The translations under genes and the position numbers were made by a program. A DNA stretch of 64,000 bases from a virus. The notes beneath the pieces are model-generated. The model did not search any database, was not told where the DNA came from, and saw only the letters and a program-made list of their open reading frames with translations. Below, piece after piece: positions 33,792-51,354 of the stretch; position 1 is the stretch's first letter; each line of letters opens with the position of its first letter. Location: positions 1 through 64,000 of the IMG/VR virus record IMGVR_UViG_3300048672_000512; one strand, 5' to 3'.

Positions 33792-36700
33792 ATGATTTCT
33801 AACTTTGTAACCGAAAACAGAACTATCACTGTTCCGTTGTTTCGGCAAAAGCCTCAATTCACGCCAGTTGCTGTTGCCGCTCGTAATGTGTCGCAACCAG
33901 CACGCGCTATTACTGCAGCTCCGGTGATCCGTCAGGTTTCCACTCTGTACCCTGACGCTAGGTTTGAGCTGGTTGAAAAGGACCGCAATAACGGTTTTCT
34001 ATACCTTTTCAACGGCAGGTACGAAGCGCAGAAAGCTATGTACCTTTTCCTTTCCATGGTTACGGCTGCTGCATATCCTACGCTAGAGCAGATTCCTATT
34101 GGCAAGAAGGTTCGTGGAAATAGCGCGCCTGTTAAGGAAATGACAAAGGGCGATCGTGAAACCATAAACAAGGTTCTGATCGAATCCTTCAAGCGTCGTG
34201 GTGCCGTGTCGTTGACCACGGTTAAAAAGCAGGCTTCCGAGTTTCGCGTTACGCTGCCGCTGTTTGCTTCAACTGGACTTAATCTTCCTGGTATTACAGC
34301 TCGGCTGTCCTCGCGCGCCGGCGTTACTAATGAAGAACTTGAGCAGTTCGGTACAGGCCGGGAATGGCCGCTAGCATCGCTTCCGGCTACGGGTGGTAAC
34401 TACAATGACAAGTTCAAAGCAGGTATCGCTTCAGCGAGTCCAGTTCTGAAGTTTGTAAAGCTCGGGGAACTCGATGCTTGGGTTTTGGAATTGACTATCA
34501 CAAAGGGTCAAGCTGAATTCCTGACCAATTCTTCTTGGGTTGAAATCCGCCCGATGGACTTGCATGGTCTGCTATACGAGTGGGGGTTGACATACTATGG
34601 CGATCTTATCAAGGCAACTCCTGACTACGCAATTCCGCTTCGTCAAATTGCAAAGTCGCTTGATGCTTCTCGTACAACGCCGCGCCTTAGTGAAGACGGG
34701 CTTCTTGTCACTGAGCGTGCTGAAATCCTTGCACTGCCACGCGAGCTTGACGCTGTTCGTACTTTTGAAGACCGCTATGCGTCTGCGTACACGCAGCCGA
34801 ATGGTGCCTTCGGTGCCTTGGATCTTGAAAATCCTACGGCTGCACCGCGTCGTCCGCCTAAGGCGATGCCGGTTCTTATCGACTGGGCCAACCTAAAATT
34901 TGCGTACACCACGCAAGATGGGCGTTTGCAGACGCGTTCTCTGGATCGTTCGCGCCCGGTTACCGTAACTCACATTGTTCGTTTTCTGGAACGCAGGGTA
35001 GGTAACGATTCTGTTCGCCATGTACTAGCTCAAACGGTGTCTGTAGGTTCCAAGTGGGGTTTTGAATACCTTGGTGAGATTCGCAGCATCACTGAACTTG
35101 AACGCGCAATTGAAATTGTCGGCAAGGCCGTTGATGAATATAAGGGCATTACTGAAATCCCTCTGTATGAAGTTGCGCGCTACGCGCTGACTCCGATGGC
35201 AGAGCTGCCGGAAAACCTGCATCAGTCTTTTGCCGGTACGCTTACATCTTTCTACGCTCTGTGCAAGGCTGTGCTTGAACGCATTGACGCAGAACCCGAA
35301 ACGGCCTATGCAGAGTACTCGGTTCCTACCATAATCGAACTGCGTGCTTTCCTTGTGATCTTTACGAAGTATGCAAAGGACATTCGCAAGCTTCGCACTC
35401 AGGACGAAGAGCTTCGTAAGCCATATCTGGAGCAGCCGCCTGAAACCATTCGCCCGGAGGATCTTGCAAAATACACAGATCCGAACATGCCGCTGGAAGC
35501 TGTTCCGTTCGCTAATGACTCTGGCAAGCAGCCTTGGGGTGCTTTGCCTCACCAAGCAAAGATTGCACATCTTACAGCATCAGCACCGCCTAACGTCATT
35601 CTTCCAGTCGCTACTGGTGGTGGCAAATCTTCGATCATCATCTACGATATCCTTCGTGAAATGGGTCGCGGTAGTAAAGGCCCGTTCCTGATTCTTTGCC
35701 CGTCGCATCTTGTTTCCAACTACGTGCGAGAGTTTGTCTACTTCACGAACTCTGAAGTGAACGTGATTCCGATCACCAACTACACAATCAACCGTCATGG
35801 CTATGAACGCCTGCAGACGATGATTGAAAAGGCTCCGGTTAACACGGTTCTGATTGCAGACTTCAACTCGATTCGCAACAAGGCTTCATCTATTGCGTAT
35901 GGTGTTGCGCCTACCAAGGTGTTTCCTGCTATCGAGTTTCTGCGTCAGTTCGCTCCGCAGTATGTAGCTATTGACGAGAGTCACTACCTGCGTAATCGGA
36001 ATGCGCGTCAAGATGCCGTTGCTCGCTTGGTGTCTGACATTCCTAAGATCCGCCTAGCTTCGGGTACGCTGGTTGCTAACGTGCTTCTTGATCTGGTTTC
36101 TCAGTTTGCTCTGATGGACCCGACACTGTTTGGCACGGAAGAGGATTTCATCAAGACCTATGCTGCTGGTTCTACCGGTAACAAGGTTATCTATCGAGAC
36201 GGTGCAGAGCAGGAAGTGAATTCGGCACTGCGCTCTTCGTGTCTGTTTGCAAAGGCGCAGAAGAAGGAATGGGCTGCTATCCTGCCATTCCCGTTGGAAC
36301 AGATTCACGGTGTTGAGCTTAGCAAGGCTCAGAAAGAGGTTTACCAGAAGATCTTTGAACAGTCGTTTATCGAAGCAATCAAGCAAGATTCTGCGCGTTT
36401 CGGTCTTCTTCTCAAGCGAGACGAAGATCTGACAGATCGTGAACGTGAAGAGCGTAACTCTCTGAACCTTGACGGTCTGATGTCGCAGTGTCTGCAGCGC
36501 ATTGAGTCGTTCCTGACTGCACCTGGCGAAGATGAAGGTGGCGCTCTTGAACTAAAGGGTGACGATCTTATTTCACCAAAGGTGCGCAAGATTGTTGACC
36601 TGTGCAAGACGCATCTGGAAAAGGAGATTCCGGGCAAGATTCTTATCTTCACCAACTACAACAAGTCAGCAGACGCAATTGACAAGGCTCTGAAGGCAGC

Positions 36701-39700
36701 TGGCCTTGGTGATATGTCCATCTACTACACGGCTACCGAAAAGGAGAAGTGTGGTGCGGACTTTGAGAACAACCCCAAGAAGAAGATCATGTTCGGGATT
36801 GAAAATTCCATGAACACTGGTTTGAATCTTCAGTACTGCTTCCCAGGTCACACTCAGATCATGACAAGTAAGAACACTGTCATGTCGCTGAAAGACGTGT
36901 TTGAGAATCCAAACGTCACAGAAGTTCTGTCCTATGACCTGAAGAATCGCAAGATTGAAATCAAGCCAATTCTTCGCAAGATTCGTACGCGTGTCAAGGA
37001 AGTAGACAAGTACGTCAAGATAGGCGTCGTTGACAACAAGACGGGTGAGCAGCGGTCTATGGTGGTAACTGCAAACCATAAGATTTTCATGAAGGGCGGT
37101 GGCAAGCTGCGTGCAGATGAACTTACAGAAGGTGATCAGCTTATAACCTTTGGTGGTAATTTTGAACGCATGCGTTCAAATCCAGACACTGATGAAATCC
37201 TTTCGTCTGCTGACTGGTTAGAAGTGCGCAATCGTGCAATTGCGTGCCCTGAGTGTGGAGAGTTCATCACACCTCAGAGCAAGATGAAACACCTAGCAGT
37301 TGAGCACGGTATTGGCGTTGCTGAGTATCAAGCACTGCTTGCAACAAAGAGCAAAAACAGCAAGCACAACTGGAGTAGCGATCGAGAGAAGATGCTCAGT
37401 GCCGTTCTGAAAGGTCATGCAGCGCAAACACACGAGCAGCGTTCAGAATACACGTCCAAGGCATGGGCTAATGACGACGGTACGCGACGTCAGCGCATGT
37501 CAGAGCTTGCTACTGCACGTTGGCAAGATGAGGATTACAAGGAAGCTACTGGCAACGCAATATCTGAAGCGCTGTTGAAGATACCTGAAGTTCTTTCTGA
37601 AAACTCAAAGCGTAATTGGGCACGTCCTGAGTACCGTGAGCGGCTGCTGGAAGTATTCTCTTCGGAGGAACACAAGCAGAAGTTGCGAAACTCTACTACT
37701 GAGCGTCATGAGAACGATGCCAGTTTCACGTTGAAGTGCTTGGTTGGAATGGCTGAAGGCCGCATGTCGGAACCGTCAAGCTATGAACAGAGGGTTATTG
37801 ACCTGCAGATTGACAACTTGAAGTTTGTTGGAACCTCGCATGCTCACTGCACTATCACTTTGGAGATTGACGGAAAGCGTGTTCTGAAGAACCCAGATTT
37901 CATATCTGAAAACCACCTGGATGAAGACGGTCAACCTTTGCGCGTTGTTGAAGTAGTTGGTGGTCGCAAGTGGACAAATCGCTTTGCAGAGCACGACAAG
38001 AAACTGATTGCAGCATACAAGAATGCTGGCATCAAGTGCTTGGTAATTGGAGAAGAGGACTTTGCAGACCTGGAAACAGTAGAGGCAAAGTTGCAGTCCT
38101 TTGTAAACAATCACTATCTAACGGTTCGTTGGGTTCGCAACTACACGAACACGAATGTGATTGGTGACTTCAAGTACGACATTGAAGTTGAAGGTAACCA
38201 CAATTACTTTGCTCTTGCTGGAAACGAGGATCTAGCACGTCAGAGTCGAAAGGGCATTCCTGTTCTGGTAAGCAACTGCAGTAGGCTGATTAGGTGTGAG
38301 ACAGTGTGGACCCCAGGTGTTCTTGAACAGGGTAACGCACGTATCGGACGCCCAAATCTGAAAGTTGAGGAATCACGTCCTTACGTCTACTACGACTGGG
38401 TTGTGGCTCTGGATACGCTTGACGTCACGAAGATCAGCTACCTGATTTCAAAGACTATCTCTGCAGCAAAGTTCTCTGAAGCCGGAAACGAACGCTTTGA
38501 TGACATTGAAGTTCCGCCGCTGTTTCCCATGACTCTGGAAAACATCCAGAACATGAATTCGTGGCAGGAGACTCTTCCTGAGTACATCAGTGCCTATCAA
38601 GCATATCAGAAAGCGACAGAAGCCGAGTACGCGGACTATCGTGAACGTGCAAAGGACTACCTGTTTGACGCTGACGGAAAGCGCCGAATGGCTAAGGTGT
38701 CGCGCGCTGCTAACCCTCCTGGTTCTGCTCTTATTCGTCGAGTTCCTTACCACCCGGGTACGGAGCTTTATGGTCAGGATCAACTTGGACTTGTTCGCTA
38801 CGACCAATTCCTGCGTCAGCAGGGCTTCAACGTAGCAGCTGAAGACGATGAATTTGCAGAGGATAGTGGAGCGGAAACTCCAAGTGCAGATGGTGGTTCT
38901 AAGGGGCGCCTGTCTCCTGAAAAGCGCGAACAGCTTCTCAGGGAGAACGCACTCGTAGGTGGCATGTGGGCGCATACGGAATTTGGTGATGGTCAGATTG
39001 AAAACCTTTCAGTGTCTACGATCAAGGTTCGCCTTGATAGCAGCGGTGAGCTGGTTTCGGTTGATCGCTTGAACTGCTTCCTGATCACTCGTGCTGAGAC
39101 GTCGTCAAAGGACATTCGTACTCAGGTTCTGAAGTTGCGTGGTCAAGTTCCGCTTGATGCACCAATTGAGGTTCTTGAGTCTCAGTTGACACCTGCAAAG
39201 ATGAAGATGCTTGAACGTGAGCGTCGCCAAGCAGACCAGGATGCGTATCAGCAACAGGAAGAGGAACAGGCAAGCACGGAATTTGAATTCCGCTTCAGCA
39301 TTGTCAACGACTGGCTATCGATCATCCTTGTCAACTCTGACAATGACACTGCAGTATCCGTTGTTCAGCAGAGCGGCTTCAAGTATTCACCCGAGTACTT
39401 CTATGCTGAAATGCGAACACCTAAGATGCTGTTTGATCAGTTCCAAGCGTGGTTTGATGCAGGCCTTGAAATTCCCGCAGACTACACTGACCACCTTACT
39501 GAAGTCTACAAGCGCTTCAAGTCGAATGGCAAGAAGGGCGTTACTTCGTTCATGGGCATTGCTAAGGAGCTGGAGATTCGCAACTTCTACAAGGTTGAAT
39601 TCAAGCCTGATGCTGATGCAAATACGATTCGACCCTTCCCGCTTATTCAGGACGATATCCTGTACATAGCTCTTCCTTCAAAGGGCCATCCCGGTTCCAA

Positions 39701-39905
39701 GAACGCTATGCGTCACAAGGTTCCTGGCGTGACGTGGTACAAGGAAGAAGAAGGAGCCGCGCTAGCTGCGTACACCAAGACGCGTAACAACGCAGTTACT
39801 TTCTTTGAACACATCGAAAGTCTTGGTTACACAATCTCTAACAAGGCGGATCTTATTGCAGAGCTTCGTACGCTGAAAACCATCCCTGCCAAGCCGTCCA
39901 AGTAA
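33792..39905 (+). CDS. Giant SNF2/superfamily 2 helicase-like protein with an intein
   Basis: The precursor is 2037 residues; after splicing out residues 1016-1495 it is 1557. Residues 1-575 are an unknown N-terminal region. The helicase core follows: Walker A VATGGGKSS near 606, DESHYLRN near 728 (motif II), ASGTLVAN (motif III), KILIFTNYNKSADAI and GLNLQY (motifs IV-V). After the intein comes LEQGNARIGRP, the motif VI arginine finger. The C-terminal 500 residues are unassigned and hold a Glu/Gln-rich helix (QQQEEEQASTEFEF). The helicase could remodel DNA during replication or transcription, or act in virion DNA ejection. It stands alone with a CATTTTT motif before it and a hairpin after it. 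Confidence 0.85.
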   Translation: MISNFVTENRTITVPLFRQKPQFTPVAVAARNVSQPARAITAAPVIRQVSTLYPDARFELVEKDRNNGFLYLFNGRYEAQKAMYLFLSMVTAAAYPTLEQIPIGKKVRGNSAPVKEMTKGDRETINKVLIESFKRRGAVSLTTVKKQASEFRVTLPLFASTGLNLPGITARLSSRAGVTNEELEQFGTGREWPLASLPATGGNYNDKFKAGIASASPVLKFVKLGELDAWVLELTITKGQAEFLTNSSWVEIRPMDLHGLLYEWGLTYYGDLIKATPDYAIPLRQIAKSLDASRTTPRLSEDGLLVTERAEILALPRELDAVRTFEDRYASAYTQPNGAFGALDLENPTAAPRRPPKAMPVLIDWANLKFAYTTQDGRLQTRSLDRSRPVTVTHIVRFLERRVGNDSVRHVLAQTVSVGSKWGFEYLGEIRSITELERAIEIVGKAVDEYKGITEIPLYEVARYALTPMAELPENLHQSFAGTLTSFYALCKAVLERIDAEPETAYAEYSVPTIIELRAFLVIFTKYAKDIRKLRTQDEELRKPYLEQPPETIRPEDLAKYTDPNMPLEAVPFANDSGKQPWGALPHQAKIAHLTASAPPNVILPVATGGGKSSIIIYDILREMGRGSKGPFLILCPSHLVSNYVREFVYFTNSEVNVIPITNYTINRHGYERLQTMIEKAPVNTVLIADFNSIRNKASSIAYGVAPTKVFPAIEFLRQFAPQYVAIDESHYLRNRNARQDAVARLVSDIPKIRLASGTLVANVLLDLVSQFALMDPTLFGTEEDFIKTYAAGSTGNKVIYRDGAEQEVNSALRSSCLFAKAQKKEWAAILPFPLEQIHGVELSKAQKEVYQKIFEQSFIEAIKQDSARFGLLLKRDEDLTDREREERNSLNLDGLMSQCLQRIESFLTAPGEDEGGALELKGDDLISPKVRKIVDLCKTHLEKEIPGKILIFTNYNKSADAIDKALKAAGLGDMSIYYTATEKEKCGADFENNPKKKIMFGIENSMNTGLNLQYCFPGHTQIMTSKNTVMSLKDVFENPNVTEVLSYDLKNRKIEIKPILRKIRTRVKEVDKYVKIGVVDNKTGEQRSMVVTANHKIFMKGGGKLRADELTEGDQLITFGGNFERMRSNPDTDEILSSADWLEVRNRAIACPECGEFITPQSKMKHLAVEHGIGVAEYQALLATKSKNSKHNWSSDREKMLSAVLKGHAAQTHEQRSEYTSKAWANDDGTRRQRMSELATARWQDEDYKEATGNAISEALLKIPEVLSENSKRNWARPEYRERLLEVFSSEEHKQKLRNSTTERHENDASFTLKCLVGMAEGRMSEPSSYEQRVIDLQIDNLKFVGTSHAHCTITLEIDGKRVLKNPDFISENHLDEDGQPLRVVEVVGGRKWTNRFAEHDKKLIAAYKNAGIKCLVIGEEDFADLETVEAKLQSFVNNHYLTVRWVRNYTNTNVIGDFKYDIEVEGNHNYFALAGNEDLARQSRKGIPVLVSNCSRLIRCETVWTPGVLEQGNARIGRPNLKVEESRPYVYYDWVVALDTLDVTKISYLISKTISAAKFSEAGNERFDDIEVPPLFPMTLENIQNMNSWQETLPEYISAYQAYQKATEAEYADYRERAKDYLFDADGKRRMAKVSRAANPPGSALIRRVPYHPGTELYGQDQLGLVRYDQFLRQQGFNVAAEDDEFAEDSGAETPSADGGSKGRLSPEKREQLLRENALVGGMWAHTEFGDGQIENLSVSTIKVRLDSSGELVSVDRLNCFLITRAETSSKDIRTQVLKLRGQVPLDAPIEVLESQLTPAKMKMLERERRQADQDAYQQQEEEQASTEFEFRFSIVNDWLSIILVNSDNDTAVSVVQQSGFKYSPEYFYAEMRTPKMLFDQFQAWFDAGLEIPADYTDHLTEVYKRFKSNGKKGVTSFMGIAKELEIRNFYKVEFKPDADANTIRPFPLIQDDILYIALPSKGHPGSKNAMRHKVPGVTWYKEEEGAALAAYTKTRNNAVTFFEHIESLGYTISNKADLIAELRTLKTIPAKPSK
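36837..38276 (+). other. Helicase intein with zinc finger, repeat linker and Vsr-like nuclease domain
   Basis: Residues 1016 (Cys) to 1495 (Asn) interrupt GLNLQY/CSRLIR. The splicing blocks are CFPGHTQIMTSKNTV, MVVTANHKIFM and NHNYFALAGNEDLA, ending in VLVSN before Cys. Between them lie three parts. First is a Ros/MucR-like finger (CPECG, then KHLAVEHG, from residue 1152). Next come helical repeats with Asn-Trp/Lys-Trp spacing like NUMOD DNA-binding modules. Last is a PD-(D/E)xK/Vsr-like fold with candidate residues Glu1332, Asp1369, Glu1387, His1401 and Asp1402. This is not a LAGLIDADG intein. Confidence 0.85.
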
Positions 39906-40719: not shown

Positions 40720-40758
40720 AAAAGCCCCTTGGTTTGTTTAGCTAAGGGGCTTTTATTT
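40720..40758 (+). terminator. Terminator before the deazaguanine cluster
   Basis: AAAAGCCCCTT pairs with AAGGGGCTTTT, followed by ATTTT. It insulates the queD operon from the upstream genes. Confidence 0.85.
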
Positions 40759-40984: not shown

Positions 40985-41437
40985 ATGTTCAAATCGACCA
41001 AGACCTATGGTAGTGATCGCGGTTTTTCCGTAGCTCTGCGCAACCATCGCGCACGCAATGACAACTGTGAGTTGCTTCATGGTTACTCGCTGGGTTTCAA
41101 ATTCGTTTTCGCTTCACCTACCCTGGACGCTCGTGGATGGGTTGTTGACTTTGGCGGATTGCGTACGTTGAAAGAAGAGCTTGAACATAACTTCGATCAC
41201 ACTACTCTCATTGCTGAAGACGATCCAGAACTGGAAACCTTCAAGCTCTTGCACGATAAGAAGGCACTGAAGCTTAACGTGCTGCGCGGTGTTAGCTGCG
41301 AAGAGCTAGCCGAACAGGTCTTCAACCTGACTAGATTCTGGCTGGACACAAACGGCTATAAGCACGTCACGTTGGAAAGTGTTGAAGTATTCGAGCATGG
41401 TGCAAATAGTGCACTCTTCTACAACTCCAGCAAATAA
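40985..41437 (+). CDS. queD: QueD-like 6-carboxytetrahydropterin synthase
   Basis: This T-fold enzyme has Cys28 and His32 in NCELLHGYSLGFKF, DFGGLRTLKEEL, NFDHTTLI and the C-terminal VFEHGANSALF. These match the catalytic Cys, zinc His, Asp/His and pterin-binding Glu of QueD. The usual HGH is HGY here, a variation that may alter the zinc site. The enzyme converts dihydroneopterin triphosphate to carboxytetrahydropterin, the first dedicated step towards 7-deazaguanines. The length (150 aa) is normal. It heads the cluster with QueE and the transglycosylase. Confidence 0.85.
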   Translation: MFKSTKTYGSDRGFSVALRNHRARNDNCELLHGYSLGFKFVFASPTLDARGWVVDFGGLRTLKEELEHNFDHTTLIAEDDPELETFKLLHDKKALKLNVLRGVSCEELAEQVFNLTRFWLDTNGYKHVTLESVEVFEHGANSALFYNSSK

Positions 41438-41463
41438 CGTCAGAGAACATCGGAGAACATCAA

Positions 41464-41856
41464 ATGAATAACCCTTATAGCGGCGTTCCGTCAAGCTCAG
41501 ACGCCTTCAGTCAATCCACATTAGTATGGATCAAGTTTCAGGTTGTAGGATTTCACTTCTATCCGAATGCACCTGACGACGTCTCTTACCTTCGAGACAA
41601 TCACCGCCATGTATTCAATTTCAAGGTTACGATTTCCGTAACGCATGATGAACGCGAGATTGAATTTCACCAGTTCAAGCGAGAGCTTCAGGCGCGCTAT
41701 TCATCGGAGGAGCAGTTCGGCGGATCCTCTTGCGAAACTATTGCAAAGAGCTTGCTGAACTACATCGTAGACAAGTACAAAGGACACGAGTTCGTGTCCG
41801 TTGAAGTTTCTGAAGATGACGAGTGTGGCTCGGTTGTAACCTGGGAAAGGGGTTAG
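41464..41856 (+). CDS. Second QueD-like/T-fold protein, 130 aa
   Basis: The segments VWIKFQVVGFHFYPNAP, NHRHVFNFKVTISVTHD and EIEFHQFKREL resemble the beta strands and His-containing loops of the T-fold family. They are followed by SSCETIAKSLLNYI and a Glu-rich end. It lacks the typical CxxxHG motif. It sits 26 bases after queD. It might be a catalytically different paralogue, a partner subunit or a base-recognition protein. Confidence 0.5.
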   Translation: MNNPYSGVPSSSDAFSQSTLVWIKFQVVGFHFYPNAPDDVSYLRDNHRHVFNFKVTISVTHDEREIEFHQFKRELQARYSSEEQFGGSSCETIAKSLLNYIVDKYKGHEFVSVEVSEDDECGSVVTWERG

Positions 41857-41862
41857 TAGATC

Positions 41863-42222
41863 ATGATAAAAGAAACTTGGTATCTGCTGTATCGTGTACT
41901 TGACAATGGCGAGCTGGAATTTGTCAGAAGGACAACAAGCGGATCGCTTGCTTTTTCCTGGTTCAACGATGTTGATACTTGCGTTCAGATAGTGACGGAT
42001 ACAAGTCTTTGCACGGCTACCGGGTGGGAAGACTTTCAAAACATACTGTCGTCAATAGCCCTGCGTATAAAGGCTAAGACAGAAGAGGCAACAAAAGATC
42101 TTCCCCAAGGAACTTGCCTCTCTTGTCGTGGCGATGGAGAAATAGGTGGTCAATTCTGTGGAGGTACTTATGAACAGTGTCCCGCCTGCAACGGTACAGG
42201 AGTTGCTACCAATGGCAAGTGA
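41863..42222 (+). CDS. Protein with C-terminal DnaJ-type zinc motif, 119 aa
   Basis: The last 35 residues carry CLSCRGDGEIG and CPACNGTGVA, two CxxCxGxG units as in DnaJ zinc centres. A further Cys lies between them. The N-terminal 80 residues are alpha/beta. Its function in the deazaguanine cluster is unknown. It could bind nucleic acid or tRNA/DNA substrates. The next gene starts inside its 3' end at 42170. Confidence 0.7.
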   Translation: MIKETWYLLYRVLDNGELEFVRRTTSGSLAFSWFNDVDTCVQIVTDTSLCTATGWEDFQNILSSIALRIKAKTEEATKDLPQGTCLSCRGDGEIGGQFCGGTYEQCPACNGTGVATNGK

Positions 42223-42922
42223 TCCGCGTGCTAGTCTCTGCAAAGCTCCACTGTTCTACGGCAAAGAACTGGAAGGATTCTCGCAAGGAGAATACACGGT
42301 TTTCGTAACGGACATTCGCTACCTTTTGGAAAACGAAAACCTTGTTACTAGCGCAGCGTGGCTAGCTCACAGCTGCCTTCCGTCTAACGTTCGCTACCTA
42401 CATCCTTACCAGTGGCTGCACAGGCTGTACTTAGGTGCGGGTGAGCTATCTGATATTTCAATCAGCGACTTGCATGATCTGCTGACTTCTGAATATATAG
42501 CAGTTGTCAAGACACTAGTCGTAGAAGCTACAGCTGAGTGGTATCTAGCAAACGCGGCAGAGCTTAAGCATCTAGTGCAGGAGTTCAACTGCTCAAGTGC
42601 AAACAGAAGCGCAGCTCGCAGCCGATACCGTACAACCACAAAGCTTCAGTTTGAGTTTGTAGTTACCACAACAATGATAGGCTCTGGTGGCAGGTTTATA
42701 ACCGACTGTACTGAAAAAGAGTATGTAGCTGTTAAACACCTGCAAGACAGCTTTGAAGCCTGCAACGTATCTTTCTACTACAAAGTAGACGCGTGTAACG
42801 TAGTTGTTATCTCTATCAGAAACTCACTAGCAGGAAATACAGCAGTTAGGCTTAGTTCTGTGGGTGGCAAATACAGCAATGACGTGGACTTGACACCATA
42901 CATCGATGACATGAAAAGATGA
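42170..42922 (+). CDS. Unknown protein inside the deazaguanine cluster, about 250 aa
   Basis: The ATG at 42170 has GGAGG at 42160-42164, so I choose it over an upstream GTG. The protein is helical in its first 140 residues (DIRYLLENENLVTSAAWL; AEWYLANAAELKHLVQEF) and beta-rich after residue 155. No family is recognised. It overlaps the transglycosylase start by 4 bases, so it is probably translationally coupled to it. Confidence 0.65.
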   Translation: MNSVPPATVQELLPMASDPRASLCKAPLFYGKELEGFSQGEYTVFVTDIRYLLENENLVTSAAWLAHSCLPSNVRYLHPYQWLHRLYLGAGELSDISISDLHDLLTSEYIAVVKTLVVEATAEWYLANAAELKHLVQEFNCSSANRSAARSRYRTTTKLQFEFVVTTTMIGSGGRFITDCTEKEYVAVKHLQDSFEACNVSFYYKVDACNVVVISIRNSLAGNTAVRLSSVGGKYSNDVDLTPYIDDMKR

Positions 42923-44247
42923 ACAAAAAAGAAAAGGAAGAGCTGCTACGCTCCGGTGTTGGGTATTACCTAGCACCTGCCTGCATAGATAGAATACTGC
43001 CATCGCTTATCAAAGAGGTTGCAGATGGGTCAACAGAGTTGACAGCGTCAACGCAGAAAGAAGGGGCGCTAGCTAAGTACCACCTAACGATGCCTGGAAA
43101 GAGTCTGTATATTGCTTCAGACTCTTACGCTTTGCGAAACACACAGCTTCTGAAATCAAAGAACTTCCACAACTGGCGAGCATTGTCCGACTCACCCTTT
43201 GGTCTGATAAATCACTTTGATAGTCCAGATCGGATTGCAGGTTTCCTGAAGTCTACCAAGTTGATTCTTCAGGACTCTGGTGGTTTTCAGATGGCTACCG
43301 GAAAGACAGACTTTGTGTGTCCTGAGTACGTTCTGGAAAAGCACAGAAACAACGCAGACATCGGAGTGACACTGGATATTCCGATCTACCCGTTCACGCA
43401 TGCTATAACAGCAGAGACAATACCAAGAGTTGCGTCAGTCACTGAAAGAACGAACCGATACTTTCTGAAGTCTGGCTATAGCAGCTTCATGAATCTGAAT
43501 CATGGAAGAAACATCAAGGAGCGTCTGAAGTGGATGGAGAGCACTCAGAAAAAGGCTCCGGGTGTCGCTCTATGCATCGGGGGTTTCATCAGCAACAATC
43601 GCAGAAAGGTGCTACCCAAAGCGTTTGCTGCAACGGTTGTCAAGCTCATTCAAGCGTCTGGGTATAGATACTTTCATGTTTTGGGTGTTAGTACAAGTTG
43701 GCAACAGATCATCCTAGCTTCAATAGCGCACAGGTATAAAGTGCTGATAACCAGCGACAGCACATCCTGGCTTACACTAGCGCGACGCGGCTGCTTGATA
43801 ACGCCTAACTATGACGTGTATCAGCTTCCAAAGTCAAAGCCTGGTCACAAGACAGACAAGCTTTTGAACTGCGTGTGTCCTGCTTGTTCCATCTTTCAGT
43901 ACGAAGCTTTGTACTCGCACAACACGCGGTTTGCTCTTGTGCACAATTTGCTAGCAGCAGACCGAATTGCTTCTCAAATCAACGCAGTTTTTGCTGGCAA
44001 TCCAGACCTGTCTGTAGACTGGGAGTCCAGTCTTGTGAAAGAGAACATGAAAGGCGTTGACGCCTACATAAACGGCGAACGTGTATGGAAGGACACAGAC
44101 GAACTGAAGACCGGAACAACCAAAATTCGAGAGTCGCTGTTCAGCAGCAGCGAAGACTTTGTGCATGCAGATCTGGCAACACAGAAGGCTTCCCTGAACA
44201 GAATTTTGACAGCATACGACAAGTTCTTTGCAGAAAGAGGAATCTAA
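42919..44247 (+). CDS. dpdA: DpdA/TGT-type guanine transglycosylase, 442 aa
   Basis: The protein shows the TGT-fold signatures. LQDSGGFQ carries Asp119. ITSDSTSW carries Asp280. A zinc site is formed by Cys318, Cys320, Cys323 (CVCPAC) and a downstream His (LVHNL). LDIPIYPF and CIGGFIS line the base pocket. tRNA TGT enzymes exchange guanine for preQ bases. Phage relatives called DpdA act on DNA and insert 7-deazaguanines. The QueD/QueE context in a phage favours DpdA. Asp280 as nucleophile and the zinc ligands align with the known enzyme by position. It overlaps the upstream gene by 4 bases. Confidence 0.85.
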   Translation: MNKKEKEELLRSGVGYYLAPACIDRILPSLIKEVADGSTELTASTQKEGALAKYHLTMPGKSLYIASDSYALRNTQLLKSKNFHNWRALSDSPFGLINHFDSPDRIAGFLKSTKLILQDSGGFQMATGKTDFVCPEYVLEKHRNNADIGVTLDIPIYPFTHAITAETIPRVASVTERTNRYFLKSGYSSFMNLNHGRNIKERLKWMESTQKKAPGVALCIGGFISNNRRKVLPKAFAATVVKLIQASGYRYFHVLGVSTSWQQIILASIAHRYKVLITSDSTSWLTLARRGCLITPNYDVYQLPKSKPGHKTDKLLNCVCPACSIFQYEALYSHNTRFALVHNLLAADRIASQINAVFAGNPDLSVDWESSLVKENMKGVDAYINGERVWKDTDELKTGTTKIRESLFSSSEDFVHADLATQKASLNRILTAYDKFFAERGI

Positions 44248-44248
44248 C

Positions 44249-45463
44249 ATGAGCAAGATGTTTTACGTCGGTCTGGAGCGCTATCAGTCTCGCTACAGCT
44301 ATGATCTTGAGAATTGGACGCGCCAAGCCTGTGGTGAAAACTTTCCGCTTGAATTCGTTTCTGTTGGAGACAGCAAGTCGCTACACGCAATCAGCAACGG
44401 TCAGGTTCTTGACGCGTGTATTCGACCGCTACACGCGCTGATGCAGATTTCTGAGTTGATTCAATACGTGCAAGACGGAAGTCTAACTTCCGACGATCTG
44501 ATCTTCTTTGAAGACATGTACCATCCTGGCTTGGATGGTCTAGCTTACGCTCTTGCTCTGAAACGCGTCAAGCCACTTATCGTAGGTCGCTGCCTAGCGC
44601 AGACAATCGATCCAGACGATTTCACGTCAAACCATCCGGTGCTGCGCAAGTGGATGCCCAAGTATGAAAAGATGGCGCTTGACATCTTTGACGTACTGTT
44701 TGTTGCATCGCATGAAATGGTGAGCTTCATGCGAGCGGCTGGTTGGAACGCGCACGTGCTTGTTACCGGTCTTCCATTCAGCACAAAGTGTGTACGTGAA
44801 GTTGCAAACTGCAATCCTGATGGTATGCAGCCTGAAGGCTTTCACTCGCGCAAGCAGCGCGTGGTGTTTGCTTCGCGTCTTGACTGGGAAAAGCAACCCG
44901 TCTTCTTCCTTGAGGTTGCAAGAACAGTGCGTAAGATAGCACCGCATATCGAGTTTGCTTTCTTATCAGGCAAGCCGTGGTCAAGCAACAGACGGAGCAT
45001 TGAAGTTGAGATCCGCAAGGATATCAATGACGGTCTGGTTTCCATGTACGACAACCTTAGCAAGGAAGCGTACTACGATATTCTAAAAGACTCGCGTGTG
45101 CTGTTCAATTGCGCGCTGCAAGACTGGGTTTCAAACACGGTGTCTGAAGCTGATGCTCTTGGCTGCAATCTGGTGTTTCCTGCCTACCGCTCTTTTGTTG
45201 AGTTGTTTGTGGAGCGACAGTCCTGCCTGTACACACCTTGGAATGTAAAACAAGCAGCGGACGCGGTAATCGTAGCTTGTTGCAAGCCGGATGAAAAGAT
45301 CGGAAGTACGGCCGATATGATGTCAGCAATGACAGCTAGCAGCATGACACAACTTGCTGAGCTACTGCAAGATCATATTCAAGGAGAAGGCTTTTCGCAT
45401 GGAACTACGGTTGCTGACCTTGACAGGATGCATTTTAACCGAGCAGACTGGAGCTACACATGA
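44249..45463 (+). CDS. GT-B glycosyltransferase
   Basis: The ATG at 44249 has GAAAGAGG upstream and follows the dpdA stop by one base. The C-terminal half is typical of glycosyltransferase family 4/1: FASRLDWEKQPVFFLEVA, then EFAFLSGKPW, LVSMYDNLSKEAYYDILK, and ALQDWVSNTVSEADALGCN, the nucleotide-sugar-binding E-x7-E type site. The N-terminal half is a Rossmann-like domain with FFEDMYHPGLDGL. No membrane or signal segment is seen, so it is cytoplasmic. Its place between dpdA and queE suggests glycosylation of a modified base in DNA. Confidence 0.8.
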   Translation: MSKMFYVGLERYQSRYSYDLENWTRQACGENFPLEFVSVGDSKSLHAISNGQVLDACIRPLHALMQISELIQYVQDGSLTSDDLIFFEDMYHPGLDGLAYALALKRVKPLIVGRCLAQTIDPDDFTSNHPVLRKWMPKYEKMALDIFDVLFVASHEMVSFMRAAGWNAHVLVTGLPFSTKCVREVANCNPDGMQPEGFHSRKQRVVFASRLDWEKQPVFFLEVARTVRKIAPHIEFAFLSGKPWSSNRRSIEVEIRKDINDGLVSMYDNLSKEAYYDILKDSRVLFNCALQDWVSNTVSEADALGCNLVFPAYRSFVELFVERQSCLYTPWNVKQAADAVIVACCKPDEKIGSTADMMSAMTASSMTQLAELLQDHIQGEGFSHGTTVADLDRMHFNRADWSYT

Positions 45464-46311
45464 TTCCTATCTATGCAGATACAAATGTAGGGCCGAAGTT
45501 CTACACGCGAGCCGATGCGCTGCTTGTACGCCACACGTTCTTCACTATTCAGAGTGAAGGTCCATTCTGCGGGCGGCCTGCTTTCTTCATTCGCCTGGGA
45601 GGATGTAATCTTGGCGACAAGTCCAAGTACTGTTCTTTCTGTGACTCGGATTTCAGAGCAGAGCATTCCACGTATCAAACCTACCAAGAATTGCTTGACA
45701 AGATTCTTGAAGTAAGGGCGCCGCTTGAGTATGACCCGCTTATCGTGATCACGGGCGGTGAGCCGTTTCTGCAGGCTATACAGCTTCAGCGTTTTGTACG
45801 GCACTTGCATGAAAACTTGGACTGGGTTGAAATTCAATTTGAGTCCAACGGAACAATGTTTTCGCACATCCGCAGCCTACTAGCGCAAGCTGTCTACAAC
45901 TCCGTGTCTGTAGTCGTGTCTCCAAAAGCTGCAATGACGGATGATGGCTTACACTTCACGGGCGACCCTGGAGCTTCCTTCACCGACGCTGAAGAATCAG
46001 ACAGCGCATCTGAAGAAACCTGGTTTATTGCAGACAACCTCTATTACAAGTTTGTGGTTTCTGCAGATCCAACTTCAAAGCATAACCAGTTGCCTGCATG
46101 GGTAGACAGGATTCCGCCAGAGAAGGTTTACATATCTGCTATTGCAGAGTACAGGCGTGAACTGAAGCCTGGAGAAACCGCAAACCTGTGGGATGCGACT
46201 CTGATTGATCAGGCGAGTACTTCCAAGAACTACCAATATGCTGCTGAACTTGCAATGGAGAAAGGATTCAACCTGAGTGTACAGAGTCACCTTCTTTGCT
46301 CAATAGAATAA
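45460..46311 (+). CDS. queE: QueE, 7-carboxy-7-deazaguanine synthase
   Basis: The N-terminal segment FFTIQSEGPFCGRPAFFIRL is characteristic of QueE. The radical SAM cluster is CNLGDKSKYCSFC, a Cx8Cx2C spacing. VITGGEPFLQ is the SAM-binding GGE motif and FESNGTMF a further family motif. The reaction turns carboxytetrahydropterin into CDG, from which host or phage QueC makes preQ0. The start overlaps the stop of the glycosyltransferase (ATGA). QueC and FolE are not in this window, so they are elsewhere or come from the host. Confidence 0.9.
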   Translation: MIPIYADTNVGPKFYTRADALLVRHTFFTIQSEGPFCGRPAFFIRLGGCNLGDKSKYCSFCDSDFRAEHSTYQTYQELLDKILEVRAPLEYDPLIVITGGEPFLQAIQLQRFVRHLHENLDWVEIQFESNGTMFSHIRSLLAQAVYNSVSVVVSPKAAMTDDGLHFTGDPGASFTDAEESDSASEETWFIADNLYYKFVVSADPTSKHNQLPAWVDRIPPEKVYISAIAEYRRELKPGETANLWDATLIDQASTSKNYQYAAELAMEKGFNLSVQSHLLCSIE

Positions 46312-46448: not shown

Positions 46449-46814
46449 ATGATCAAGAAGATTTCAACCATGCTACTTCTGTGCGCTACAGTTTCACTAG
46501 CACCAGTTGTGCAAGCTGCAGAGGTTTCCTCAGATATCAATCTGCGCCCTATTGTTAGTACGGCTAGGGGCTTGGGTTATCTGCTTGGCACAAATGAAGA
46601 CGAGCGCAAGCTGTTTTTCGGTTACCTGTACGGAGCTTTAGGCATGGGGAACCATGTATTCTTTTGTCTTCCGGAAACTCCATCGATAAAGAGTATGGGG
46701 CTATTTGCAGTGCGTGCCTTTAACTCCATCCCAGAAGACAAACGGGACGTAGTAGAGGCAGCAGACGCTCTAGCTGTTTATCTGGCACTTCGATACAAGT
46801 GCACAAAGGCGTGA
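46449..46814 (+). CDS. Secreted Rap1a/Tai-like protein, 121 aa
   Basis: The N-terminus MIKKISTMLLLCATVSLAPVVQAAE is a classic signal peptide with an AxA cleavage site. The mature part has FFGYLYGALGMGN, FFCLPETPS and a C-terminal ALRYKC. This fits the small Cys-paired periplasmic Rap1a/Tai immunity-type fold. A phage copy would act in the periplasm, for example in superinfection exclusion or neutralising a toxin. The family match is by eye. A strong terminator follows. Confidence 0.6.
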   Translation: MIKKISTMLLLCATVSLAPVVQAAEVSSDINLRPIVSTARGLGYLLGTNEDERKLFFGYLYGALGMGNHVFFCLPETPSIKSMGLFAVRAFNSIPEDKRDVVEAADALAVYLALRYKCTKA

Positions 46815-46860: not shown

Positions 46861-49365
46861 ATGACCATGTTTACCGCCTACTTTGAAACTGGACAGCTGC
46901 GCTACCGTAGTGATCTTGAAGTCCTAAACCTTTCTGAGGTGGAAGACTTCTACAAGCTAGTGCCAGTATGTTCTAGAAACTGGAAGTCCTCCGAGTTCCG
47001 TCTTCTGGTTGTTGTGGAAGCTGTAGATCGTCAAGACCTGAAGACAGGAAAGCTTCTGTCTATGGACCTTGAAAAGGAGCGCGGTTCCTCCTACTACGCA
47101 AACACAATGACTGCACTTCTACCTGGGCTGCTTGACGCCTCATGGAAGATGTACACAGACTGGCTTGCAGTAGACAATGAAACACCTGAAGTTTCTGAAG
47201 TAGCTCTTGGTGTTGTCAATTTCAACGCTGCAAAGACGTACACGCTTGAGCCTACAGCAAGAAAGGCGATGCACAAGAAGTTTGCGGATCGTGTTATACA
47301 CGTGATCGATAGCATGAAACCCACGCATGTCTTTGTGTGTGGAGACACTGCTACCGTCAACCTGTTGGAATTGCTATCCGAACAGGATGTTCCTCACTGC
47401 GAAGTGAAGCGTGGCTGGGTTTTTGACCTAACGCACAAGAACCACAAGTTCAAGCTGGTTCCATCGCTGGATCTTGAAACGCTGTACAACCCAAAGGCTA
47501 ACGAGTCTGCAGATGACGACGACGGCGACTCAGACATGGCGGACAAGTACGCAACTGCAGATCTGCTGTACTTTGTAGGTCGCAACCTTGTAAACCTGTT
47601 TGCTGGACGGCACCTGTACTCTCTTAAGAGGCTGCGTCCAAAGGCCGTGTATGTAGACACCGTGGAACAGTTTGACAAGGTCATGGACCTTGTTGAATCT
47701 CCGGACGTTGAATATGTTGGCACAGACACGGAAGGTGCTAGCCTGAATGTAGTGACCAACAAGATATTTTCTGTGCAGTTTGCTGTAGACACAAAGGTTG
47801 GCTATGTCATACCGCTGTTGCATCCAGATACGCCGTTTGATGGAGAAGAGCTGAAGTATGTTTTCAAGCGACTTCGGAAGTTCTTTGGTGCTACCAAAGA
47901 GGCAAGCCTGAAGACGCTGGTGTACATCAACGGCAAGTTTGACCTGCGCTTTCTACGTGTGCAACTAGGCATTCCTGTCATTCTGCATCGCACCTATGAG
48001 GTTAACGCCGGCGAACAGCTTCTGGATGAAAACATTGGCTTGTTTGGTGGTGCTGATTCTGGAGGTCTGCGCTTTCGCAAGGATAACGACAAGGTCCGCA
48101 CCTCGTATCAAGGCCTCATGAATGCTCTGTGCCTGTACGAGAACGACGCTTACTACAATCTGCAGTTTTCAAAAGAAGACCGTGGAAACATGGGTGCGCA
48201 ACCGTTGAATGATCCAGACGTTCTCTACTACTGCGCGCATGACTCTGTAGCTGTCTTAGCCATGGCACGCATGCAGATACGTAGAGCTAAACATACATTC
48301 GTGCGTCCGAACTTTGACAGCAAGAAGCTGGTTCCATATTACAAGTATTTCATTCGGCACGTTGTTCTACAGATGGGGGCTACGGTTCAAGGTCTTTCCT
48401 ACATGGAGCAGAATGGCTCGCCCATTGACCTTGAATACCTGACCATTCTTGCTGGAAAGAAGTCACCTTTGCTTGCTGAAATCAATCAGCTGAACAACGA
48501 CATGCGGGCCTTCCCTAGCGTAGCTGCAACAGAGAAGCTGCTGTTGAAGTCTATGGGGCGCTCCGGTGGTGGTTTGCTTGGTTCCGTTGGAACTGCTGGC
48601 ATGTTCGACATATCTAAGCGGGATCACTTGCACAAGCTGTTCTACGAAGTGATGAAGCTTAAAGTGGTGTCGCATACAGGCGGTGGTGCCGTAGCAATCG
48701 ACAAAGAGTTCATAAACACCTACAGCGCGGATTACAAGGAAGTAGCAACCTTTGGTCAGTACACCAAGGTAACGAAGCTGATGTCAACCTACGTCAAAGG
48801 GTGGTTGAAGAAGATTCAAGTTTCGGTAGACGACCTAGCTAGAAGTGTTCTGAGTCCTGGCTTTGGATTCTTTACCATTGTCACTGGACGCCTGAACAGT
48901 TTCAAACCTTCTTTGCAGAACGTACCGTCACGCGGAGGTACGGCAAAGATAATCAAGCGAATGTTTCGAGCACCCAAGGGTTTTCTTAGCGTCAATTTCG
49001 ATTACAGCGCGAATGAAATCCGTGGCGGCGCTATCCTTGCAAAGGATGATAAGCTAGCCGGAGCTTTTCAAGATGGTATCGATCTACGTAAACAGTGGAT
49101 TGTAAAACCTTCAGCTGAACTTGCAGCCAGTCTAGCAACGCGCGGTGACGTCCATATTCAGAACGTCAAACGCCTGTTTGGTGTTTGGGTTGCAAAGTCC
49201 GACCCTCGCCGTAATGCCATTAAGGCAGTTGTGTTCGGTCTTATGTATGGAAAGGGTGCAGGAACCCTCGGTAAGGACTTGAAGAAGGACGCTCTGAATG
49301 AGGCTATGGATAAGCGTCGCAGTATCGTCAAACAGATACGGGAACTTGAAAAAGAAGTAAGCTGA
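46861..49365 (+). CDS. polA: Family A DNA polymerase, N-terminal piece (exonuclease + motifs A and B)
   Basis: This 834-residue protein has an N-terminal region of about 250 residues with HVFVCGDTATVNLLELL, loosely like uracil-DNA-glycosylase folds. A 3'-5' exonuclease domain follows (Asp289/Glu291 in GTDTEG; YINGKFDLRF; YYCAHDS). Then come the polymerase palm and fingers. Motif A is VNFDYSANEIRGG with Asp714. Motif B is RRNAIKAVVFGLMYG with Lys788, Phe792 and Tyr796. The protein ends in a charged helix (KRRSIVKQIRELEKEVS). Motif C is missing and is supplied by the gene at 50413. No ribosome-binding site is visible between the terminator and the start. Confidence 0.9.
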   Translation: MTMFTAYFETGQLRYRSDLEVLNLSEVEDFYKLVPVCSRNWKSSEFRLLVVVEAVDRQDLKTGKLLSMDLEKERGSSYYANTMTALLPGLLDASWKMYTDWLAVDNETPEVSEVALGVVNFNAAKTYTLEPTARKAMHKKFADRVIHVIDSMKPTHVFVCGDTATVNLLELLSEQDVPHCEVKRGWVFDLTHKNHKFKLVPSLDLETLYNPKANESADDDDGDSDMADKYATADLLYFVGRNLVNLFAGRHLYSLKRLRPKAVYVDTVEQFDKVMDLVESPDVEYVGTDTEGASLNVVTNKIFSVQFAVDTKVGYVIPLLHPDTPFDGEELKYVFKRLRKFFGATKEASLKTLVYINGKFDLRFLRVQLGIPVILHRTYEVNAGEQLLDENIGLFGGADSGGLRFRKDNDKVRTSYQGLMNALCLYENDAYYNLQFSKEDRGNMGAQPLNDPDVLYYCAHDSVAVLAMARMQIRRAKHTFVRPNFDSKKLVPYYKYFIRHVVLQMGATVQGLSYMEQNGSPIDLEYLTILAGKKSPLLAEINQLNNDMRAFPSVAATEKLLLKSMGRSGGGLLGSVGTAGMFDISKRDHLHKLFYEVMKLKVVSHTGGGAVAIDKEFINTYSADYKEVATFGQYTKVTKLMSTYVKGWLKKIQVSVDDLARSVLSPGFGFFTIVTGRLNSFKPSLQNVPSRGGTAKIIKRMFRAPKGFLSVNFDYSANEIRGGAILAKDDKLAGAFQDGIDLRKQWIVKPSAELAASLATRGDVHIQNVKRLFGVWVAKSDPRRNAIKAVVFGLMYGKGAGTLGKDLKKDALNEAMDKRRSIVKQIRELEKEVS

Positions 49366-49398: not shown

Positions 49399-50412
49399 AT
49401 GCCAAATGCAGGAAGTCAAACTAGTCAGACTAGTCACGATGTAACGATACGCAAGATGTTGGATGGGTGCGAGCTTCTTGTAGACGCTTACAGCCTGACT
49501 TGCGTGGATCCAGTCGTACCGTCGCCGCACGGAGCCTCCTATATGTTTGTGGATGGCACGTGGGTAGGCGCTAGTACAAGCATAACCGGAACCGTTGGAC
49601 GCAAAGCGCGTGTTATTCCACACCAAGGATCAGCACCGCCGCGTTCAAACATCACAACAGAAGTCCTTGCAACAGGAGCAAATACAAACTGCACCGTTGA
49701 AGTATGTATTCCAGGTCAGCTATGGTGGCATGGTCAGAGCATAGAGTTTGCTATTGAACCGTTTTCAGTTCTTGTTCTATCAATGACTGGTACTGGAAAG
49801 TGCGATCTGAGAATCACTGGAAGTGGCTACCAGTCCGTAACAAGCGGGCTTGGTGGCTCTGCTCGCTACAACGTATCTGCAAACAATCCACGAATCACAG
49901 ACATTCGCTCCGGCCCAGCTGTTCATACGTTCACTGCGGGTCAGGCTGGTATGGTGATTGTTCTGTGCTATGACACAATGCTGATAGTGGGACCACCAAC
50001 AGCACCTGCGGGCACGATAACGCATAGCTTCCAGCCAGTAAGCTCCAGCACATACACTGGATATAAAGGCGCTGCGTCATCTACTACTGTCAAGACGGAA
50101 GACAAGGTAAAGATCAACCTTGATAAGCTACCGTCGCATATTAAAGACAGGTATAACGCTACTATTGTTAGAAAGCTGCAAGAGTACATAACAGCGTACG
50201 AGACTGGATCTGGAATTACGCTTGTGCCAAATACCATGTCAGTAACGCAGAGTAAAGATGACCCGCCTCGCACGTTTCATGCTTCCTTTCGTTCTCATGG
50301 ATACGACAAAGAAGTGTTCAATGGACTAGACGCCTTTCTTCTTGTGAAGGGTTATGCAGGAAGTAGATACGACGTTGCTTCCTCCCTGATAGATCTTGAC
50401 TTTGAGGTGTGA
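49399..50412 (+). CDS. Beta-rich structural-type protein lying between the polymerase halves, 337 aa
   Basis: The N-terminal 40 residues are polar with an SQTSQTS repeat. The middle is Gly/Thr/Ser rich with strands such as EFAIEPFSVLVLSMTG and KCDLRITGSGYQS. The C-terminal 110 residues (IKDRYNATIVRKLQEYI) are alpha/beta. It carries no nuclease or intein motif, so it does not look like a homing element. GGAG lies seven bases upstream. Its stop codon is directly followed by the ATG of the polymerase C-terminal piece. A virion protein or polymerase-associated factor is possible. Confidence 0.7.
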   Translation: MPNAGSQTSQTSHDVTIRKMLDGCELLVDAYSLTCVDPVVPSPHGASYMFVDGTWVGASTSITGTVGRKARVIPHQGSAPPRSNITTEVLATGANTNCTVEVCIPGQLWWHGQSIEFAIEPFSVLVLSMTGTGKCDLRITGSGYQSVTSGLGGSARYNVSANNPRITDIRSGPAVHTFTAGQAGMVIVLCYDTMLIVGPPTAPAGTITHSFQPVSSSTYTGYKGAASSTTVKTEDKVKINLDKLPSHIKDRYNATIVRKLQEYITAYETGSGITLVPNTMSVTQSKDDPPRTFHASFRSHGYDKEVFNGLDAFLLVKGYAGSRYDVASSLIDLDFEV

Positions 50413-51354
50413 ATGACAACCGAAACAGAGTCACCTAAAGCAAAACTCGCAAGGCTGCGCACCGAGCTGAAAGACATAGACAGCAAGATAGAAGAGATTG
50501 AGGCAAAGGATTGGAAAGCGTTTGCGCAAGAAACCGTTGAAAAGTTCTATGGTGAGTTTGACGCTACGCATCACTATCTGGAAAACTGCGCTGACCACAT
50601 TCTGACAGACATGCACATCATGTCTCCAGTCGGGCGACGACGTAACATGTGGCGAGTTCTTACCGGGCGTCCCGGTATTCTTGCAGCTGCGCAGCGTCGA
50701 GGCAAGAACGCTCCGATTCAAGGCTTTGCTTCCGAGCTTGGTTGTGCAGCGGGTACGCTCATTATTGAGGAGCTTTATCTCTTTCTTCGACGCACACGTA
50801 AGTGGAATTGGCAGTTTCTGAATGACGTTGGTTTGTCTGTGATCGGCTACCTTCTGTCTCTGTACAACCGAGCGGTTCATGACGCTAACTATTACACGGT
50901 TCGCTACGAAACCATGATTCCACACATTCATATCATGCAGCACCAAGCCACCTACGGCGTAGCTCGCTGGTATGAAGAAAACTTTGACATCAAGTTCAAC
51001 GTAGACCCGGAAATCGAACTTGACTTCTCGGCTACTGCCGACAAGACGCACACATGGAACTGGGCGCTACACGGAACCGATGGCATAAAGACCAGTGGTG
51101 ACAGCCTGGATACGTGCCTGTTCAATTCTCTTGTTGATCAAGTGAAGCTGAAACAGATCACCAGCTCCAAGGAACTCAAGAGAATTGTGAAGGTGATCTG
51201 TGCACCCTGGGAAGATCAGGAAATGCGTGACTACCTGAATCAGAAGTACCCACTGTTGGGTGTCACTGATCTTGATACACAGATTGAAGGTTTCCTTGAA
51301 TCGTTCAACGCAAAGATTCAGGCCTTCTGTTCCGAACCAAAGAACTTTGAATAA
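50413..51354 (+). CDS. polA: Family A DNA polymerase, C-terminal piece (motif C)
   Basis: The 313-residue protein starts with a long charged helix (LARLRTELKDIDSKIEEIEA). It continues with sequence typical of the polymerase I palm: EKFYGEFDATHHYLENC, SPVGRRRNMWRV, KNAPIQGFASELG and AVHDANYY, in which His156 and Asp157 are motif C. These elements normally follow the O helix in one chain. The two pieces must associate to give activity, perhaps through the charged helices at the break. The C-terminal 110 residues are unassigned. Confidence 0.85.
   Translation: MTTETESPKAKLARLRTELKDIDSKIEEIEAKDWKAFAQETVEKFYGEFDATHHYLENCADHILTDMHIMSPVGRRRNMWRVLTGRPGILAAAQRRGKNAPIQGFASELGCAAGTLIIEELYLFLRRTRKWNWQFLNDVGLSVIGYLLSLYNRAVHDANYYTVRYETMIPHIHIMQHQATYGVARWYEENFDIKFNVDPEIELDFSATADKTHTWNWALHGTDGIKTSGDSLDTCLFNSLVDQVKLKQITSSKELKRIVKVICAPWEDQEMRDYLNQKYPLLGVTDLDTQIEGFLESFNAKIQAFCSEPKNFE

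Follow-up and report, generated by a model that had tools for sequence, protein, structure and literature searches.

What does the seven-gene block at positions 40985 to 46311 of virus record IMGVR_UViG_3300048672_000512 do to the DNA of its carrier? We analysed the first 64 kb of this 178,048-base record (hereafter the window); the record may be incomplete. The window contains tail, connector, ribonucleotide reductase, DNA polymerase I, primase and ThyX genes, and its source is therefore a tailed phage. The block comprises seven open reading frames, all on the + strand, which encode in order a QueD, a QueD-like protein, a zinc-finger protein, an orphan, a TGT-like protein, a glycosyltransferase (GT) and a QueE. 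The operon that had been predicted from the sequence is thus real, and so are the 4-base overlaps between neighbours (ATGA at 42919-42922, orphan/TGT, and at 45460-45463, GT/QueE). Judged by the E-values and by a content that is conserved in unrelated phages, the gene set appears far beyond chance. The original prediction took it for a 7-deazaguanine DNA-modification cluster in which host enzymes finish preQ0, and assigned no role to the GT, which we consider the most informative gene of the operon. The reading that we favour, at somewhat better than even confidence, is that the phage puts a 7-deazaguanine derived from 7-carboxy-7-deazaguanine (CDG) into its DNA and glycosylates it, by a QueC-independent route with a dedicated GT.

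The identification of the GT is borne out by its AlphaFold2 (AF2) model, which has a GT-B fold (predicted local distance difference test score, pLDDT, 81.5; the Pfam match is weak), and by its GT4-type Arg/Lys site. R209, K214 and D291-x7-E299, in which Asp stands for the first Glu of the E-x7-E motif, are invariant in 44 relatives. The model matches the retaining GT4 structures MshA, BshA and sucrose-phosphate synthase with a VIA-align Z of about 25. No convincing homologue was found among PDB sequences with the GT profile, and the T4 alpha- and beta-glucosyltransferases are not among the 50 top structural matches listed. The GT is approximately 40% identical to its IMG/VR relatives, versus 16-24% for the TGT-like protein. 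Invariant residues are numerous in its N-terminal acceptor domain, which sets it apart from GTs that follow changing host surfaces.

The company that the GT keeps in other viruses was determined by scanning IMG/VR with the GT alone; the best 80 loci of at least 599 matching stretches were kept, and all 80-locus counts rest on these. QueD-like genes are present in 77 of the 80, TGT genes in 75 and FolE genes in 64. Where at least 4.5 kb is available on both sides of the GT (51 loci), the counts are 50 for TGT, 50 for QueD-like and 49 for FolE, always on the same strand. A GalE gene starts no more than 150 bp from the GT end in 55 of the 80 loci (TIGR01179 is above cut-off in both full-length members tested), and we propose that it is the sugar-donor gene for the GT. 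Neighbouring XGPRT-like (xanthine-guanine-type phosphoribosyltransferase) genes in 28 loci and GMP reductase genes in 23 fit salvage of guanine freed by base exchange. Among 50,697 phage records, the 14 that are GT-positive all fall within the 27 that are QueD-like-positive; since 11 of the 14 belong to one Pseudomonas group, they represent approximately 4 lineages. The set of GT, QueD-like, TGT and QueE is shared by the Pseudomonas jumbo phages PA5oct, Paride and MIJ3, Xanthomonas phage X1, Acidovorax phage ACP17, Synechococcus phage BUCT-ZZ01 and Sinorhizobium phage Phosso, the last with its TGT at a distant site from the rest. The GTs of X1, Paride, ACP17 and Phosso are only 20-25% identical to that of the window and form a separate clade, and their TGTs belong to other lineages that lack the zinc motif.

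Some further proteins were seen around the GT. In 47 of the 80 loci, TGT and GT are separated by a conserved protein of approximately 178 residues (e.g., L062:4793-5305) that matches nothing in Pfam or NCBIfam and may be a further part of the pathway. Another GT4-like protein (L012:3977-5332, L002:5022-6362), distinct from the GT, is found close to the TGT in 12 loci, BUCT-ZZ01 among them. The same GT also occurs in 5 contigs (L116-L120) binned as Phycisphaerae, Syntrophomonadaceae, Rickettsiales, Rhodobacteraceae and Chloroflexi metagenome-assembled genomes, perhaps as misbinned phage.

The TGT-like protein has the intact catalytic aspartates and zinc ligands that had been ascribed to it: D119, D153 and D280 are invariant in 48 relatives, the zinc motif CVCPAC lies at 318-323, and H342 aligns with the His of archaeal TGT. 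Its Pfam TGT score is 25.6 bits, against a cut-off of 26.3. Foldseek matches 1-11 of its model are all tRNA TGTs; with a pLDDT of 59.8, this is a low-confidence model that we take as evidence of fold only. The curated tRNA-TGT cut-offs are not reached (tgt_general, 12 bits versus 47.6; TgtA, 20.6 versus 350), and by this measure the window transglycosylase falls outside the tRNA TGTs. A wider TGT profile that includes the window protein matches DpdA2 of Vibrio phage nt-1 at 9.6e-27. Together, these two results uphold the assignment as a 7-deazaguanine nucleic-acid modification operon. The same profile misses DpdA of 9g, CAjan and HVTV-1, and 9g DpdA gives no useful alignment to the group.

The original prediction had looked to phylogeny to separate DpdA from tRNA TGT families, and this gave a mixed answer. 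On a rooted TGT tree, the window protein groups with those of Achromobacter phage Motura, Voja-6 and NCTB, not with nt-1, and lies near E. coli Tgt, with long branches. Motura is the closest cultured relative (24% over 98%), and the CxCxxC motif occurs, among the sequences compared, only in the Motura/Voja-6/NCTB/window group and in E. coli Tgt. X1, ACP17 and BUCT-ZZ01 group with nt-1 DpdA2, and Paride and Phosso fall in a large group, so that three TGT lineages accompany the GT: the nt-1 DpdA2 type, the Paride type and the zinc-bearing Motura type of the window. In the GT tree, Paride groups with X1, ACP17 and Phosso, whereas in the TGT tree it groups with loci L046 and L056, whose GTs sit elsewhere. 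This mismatch of groups appears strong, although the exact placements are unsure, with long branches. Together with the three TGT lineages, it suggests that the GT/TGT pairing was rebuilt, and not merely inherited; the repeated joining of GT and QueD-like to different transglycosylases speaks for a common function. IMG/VR scans with the window TGT and with the window QueE found no relatives.

Which base would be inserted? QueC and FolE had been reported missing from the cluster, and neither was found in the whole 178-kb record, incomplete as it may be. Among 55 records searched, full-length QueC-like matches are present only in Motura and Voja-6. None of the approximately 45 GT-carrying records searched has a full-length QueC, including the complete BUCT-ZZ01, Paride, ACP17 and Phosso; the QueC matches in GT-carrying records are few, and partial or weak. 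The preQ0-type relatives Motura and nt-1 do have QueC. The claim that host enzymes finish preQ0 therefore finds no support here: QueC is missing across the GT-carrying group, and the QueC-bearing Motura and Voja-6 have no GT. To call the operon a standard preQ0 cluster dependent on QueC from the host is probably wrong; more likely, the pathway departs from the standard route at CDG, through the QueD-like protein.

The QueD-like label stands in part. The PTPS-type His triad is kept, and H31, H47, H49, E67, E91 and E117 are invariant among 40 relatives; in the same 40 aligned relatives, the QueD catalytic Cys and the Asp-His are missing. The motif order HxH, EF, (S)CE, E follows PTPS proteins, the match to an archaeal QueD homologue has an E of 0.73 only, and a profile comparison with phage QueD gave 85%, over the C-terminal part. 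We read the protein as having a QueD fold that would bind a similar ring and perform other chemistry, and propose that it acts on CDG in place of QueC. Cui and colleagues in 2023 reportedly predicted a CDG decarboxylase, DpdL, in QueC-less phages with CDG-derived 7-deazaguanine bases in their DNA. The QueD-like family could be DpdL. In 7 phages QueD-like occurs without GT, and the same 7 are also without the operon's TGT family. In four of them (loci L010, L098, L101 and L102), QueD-like is adjoined by one protein family of 259-290 residues (phiST gp042, MA9V-3 at L102:6845-7639, D479_0064 and Ahp1_681), whose DNSA/DNGA motif reminds of TGT by eye; the 2 members scanned have no Pfam match, and the family is possibly another DNA transglycosylase.

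In the proposed pathway, host FolE with phage QueD and QueE would make CDG, which would next be processed by the QueD-like protein rather than QueC, perhaps by decarboxylation to 7-deazaguanine. The TGT-fold enzyme would then exchange guanine in DNA for the CDG-derived base, and the GT4-type GT would add a hexose from a uridine diphosphate (UDP)-sugar to the inserted base. Given GalE in the relatives, this hexose is perhaps galactose. If the CDG carboxylate were kept, an ester-type or related sugar link would be possible. The bulky glycosylated 7-deazaguanine should block restriction and other DNA-targeting defences. Tentatively, and at slightly less than even confidence, we extend this to a widespread and undescribed hypermodification class, in which a CDG-derived 7-deazaguanine would enter DNA by transglycosylation. 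A dedicated GT4 family, newly combined with three or more transglycosylase lineages, would afterwards glycosylate it, possibly with galactose and possibly to a C-glycoside.

The matches for the individual genes (Table 1) confirm QueD and QueE, the latter also through its cysteine triad. Aligned with phage relatives, QueD keeps C28, D71-H72 and E137; CxxxHGY replaces CxxxHGH and the first zinc His is also replaced, as in most phage relatives, and the metal site of these phage QueDs may differ from that of E. coli QueD. The HGY form is present even in Motura, which has QueC. In QueE, the three cluster Cys and TGGEP are conserved in 37 relatives; its NCBIfam QueE match (1.9e-18) is below cut-off. 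The zinc-finger designation holds loosely, with only a weak anti-TRAP/DnaJ-type CxxCxGxG match, and no such protein lies near the GT in the other loci examined. The orphan, already listed as an unknown protein, has no match in Pfam, PHROGs, NCBIfam, phage records or IMG/VR, and its ATG appears a likelier start than the upstream GTG. The strong hairpin just upstream of the operon is predicted to close the preceding transcription unit.

Table 1. The seven genes of the operon and the hairpin that precedes them (window positions).
Feature	Position	Strand	Length (aa)	Matches and remarks
Terminator-like hairpin	40720..40754	+		15-bp stem, loop of 5, T-rich tail; consensus match only
QueD-type 6-carboxytetrahydropterin synthase	40985..41437	+	150	Pfam PTPS 1.4e-15; phrog_2389 1.8e-31
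QueD-like protein	41464..41856	+	130	phrog_17812 4.3e-26
Small zinc-binding protein	41863..42222	+		Paired CxxC motifs; NCBIfam anti-TRAP 7.9e-5 (below cut-off); phrog_8897 3.8e-5
Orphan protein	42212..42922	+	236	Length from ATG 42212; frame open from GTG 42146
TGT-fold transglycosylase, proposed DNA-guanine transglycosylase	42919..44247	+	442	Pfam TGT 8.1e-6
Retaining GT-B (GT4-like) glycosyltransferase	44249..45463	+	404	Likely start ATG 44249
QueE-type 7-carboxy-7-deazaguanine synthase (radical SAM)	45460..46311	+	283	phrog_2076 2.4e-39; Radical_SAM 1.7e-7

Phage DNA is known to contain dPreQ0, dPreQ1, dADG and dG+, and CDG has been named as a base that might occur in a phage without QueC (Hutinet et al. 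2019, PMC6884629). The same study defined DpdA2 in nt-1, which has an ArcS homologue and dPreQ0, dADG and dG+ in its DNA. In nt-1 (DpdA2, YP_008125322), as in the present system, FolE/QueD-type genes adjoin a divergent TGT-fold enzyme; there QueC lies next to DpdA2, whereas here QueC is absent and QueD-like and GT are present. Motura, whose cluster has been noted before (PMC7824862), resembles the window in the CxCxxC zinc site of its TGT and in having QueD and QueE; it differs by a QueC and an asparagine-synthetase-like protein, and by the absence of GT and QueD-like. In the literature examined, we found no description of PA5oct, Paride, MIJ3, X1, ACP17, BUCT-ZZ01 or Phosso as glycosylating systems, and a term search of the texts on PA5oct, MIJ3, Callisto, Paride and X1 found no DNA-modification data. 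Neither a GT in a deazaguanine cluster nor a glycosylated phage deazaguanine was found in the literature compared, from which Cui et al. 2023 and a 2024 MMBR review were absent, and the novelty of a glycosylated deazaguanine system is provisional. The T4-type DNA glucosyltransferases, which act on 5-hydroxymethylcytosine, likewise serve to protect phage DNA by putting a sugar on a base; they use another base. No glycosyltransferase is known to figure in the 2023 work on DpdL and the dDG/dCDG phages.

Two other substrates for the GT were considered and dropped. No thymidylate synthase/hydroxymethylase family protein was found in the phage's own record, BUCT-ZZ01, X1 or ACP17, and without a dTMP/dCMP hydroxymethylase the sugar would not be meant for 5-hydroxymethylpyrimidines in these four; Paride and Phosso do have a gene of the thymidylate synthase family. 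The presence of TGT and QueE alongside the GT was the reason for dropping a pure pterin-glucoside pathway.

A number of observations count against a glycosylated, CDG-derived base in DNA. The GT is acidic (isoelectric point 5.5) with no recognised DNA-binding part, and its structural neighbours mostly use small-molecule acceptors. If CDG is decarboxylated, the resulting 7-deazaguanine has no side group, and the GT would need to form an unusual C-C bond (C-glycoside). Over the N-terminal half, the QueD-like family is linked only weakly to the PTPS fold, activity on DNA is putative for the zinc-bearing Motura-type TGT lineage, and no published DNA chemistry was found for any GT-carrying phage in the literature compared. 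GalE or another epimerase was sought in the 178-kb record together with FolE and QueC, and none of them was found. As a neighbourhood control, IMG/VR was scanned with the window ThyX; no relatives were found, so that the background rate of linkage rests on the phage-record counts. An alternative that we judge unlikely, though deserving of weight, is that QueD, QueE, QueD-like and TGT make an unglycosylated CDG-derived base (dCDG or 7-deaza-dG) and that the GT is a mere neighbour acting on surface sugars or protein. The phages with QueD-like and no GT make a base without sugar plausible, the usual targets of GT4 enzymes are small molecules or polysaccharides, and genes of X1 have been annotated as the cell-wall/exopolysaccharide glycosyltransferases gumH, tagE and tarM (PMC13384950). 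However, the GT stays with QueD-like and TGT in approximately five cultured phage lineages as well as in the best 80 loci and partners three TGT lineages, and a surface GT would not be expected to be this conserved over hosts from Pseudomonas to Synechococcus.

The acidic GT and its small-molecule structural neighbours also leave room for glycosylation of the free base or a precursor (CDG or pterin), with the TGT then inserting the glycosylated base. GTs acting on malate (BshA) and tetrahydrobiopterin (5zes, 9v0l) give similar Z-scores, and QueD-like and GT are often adjacent. We nevertheless regard this order of steps as improbable: known DpdA insertions generally use small bases, and the nearly tied Z-scores of the GT4 structures single out no acceptor class. 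A classical preQ0 route, in which host FolE and QueC would complete preQ0 for insertion by the TGT, could draw on the QueC that many hosts encode and on the ability of phages to use enzymes of the host, and dPreQ0 is present in nt-1, a phage with DpdA2 (PMC6884629). This route is very unlikely in view of the QueC survey, in which the GT records usually keep FolE, an upstream gene that is also host-encoded, and no full-length QueC; moreover, of the QueC-bearing and GT-less Motura and Voja-6, the Motura locus has no QueD-like gene. Finally, that the transglycosylase acts on tRNA and not on DNA seems to us hardly credible. The enzyme does have the zinc site and catalytic Asp residues of tRNA TGTs, and in the rooted tree its lineage comes out close to E. 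coli Tgt, albeit with long branches. Against this, its 12 bits are far below the tRNA-TGT cut-off of 47.6, it lies at the edge of Pfam TGT, and its place in the operon is the one that DpdA2-type enzymes take.

Around the operon, a DNA-level search of window positions 40000-64000 against phage records gave no match. Directly 3' of QueE, 46449-46814 encodes a small protein whose start resembles a signal peptide and which has a weak Rap1a immunity match. Upstream, an SNF2-type helicase open reading frame (33792-39905) carries an insert resembling an intein (Pfam Intein_splicing 3.7e-8, slightly below cut-off), and the matches of the 1497-residue ribonucleotide reductase (25631-30124) are split, suggesting one or more inteins. 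DNA polymerase I is in two pieces (46861-49365 and 50413-51354) with an unrelated open reading frame (49399-50412) between them, and DDDDEDEP-type repeats fill the C-terminal half of the open reading frame at 61654-63030.

To our knowledge, known phage 7-deazaguanines carry only small groups. If our favoured reading is true, a sugar on deazaguanine would unite base swapping and DNA glycosylation, two distinct means of protection. Such a system would be widespread, given the number of IMG/VR stretches matched by the GT, and Paride, PA5oct, X1, ACP17 and BUCT-ZZ01 can be named as its cultured carriers. It would provide new DNA-modifying enzymes and would account for phage GT genes which would otherwise be taken for genes of cell-surface enzymes.

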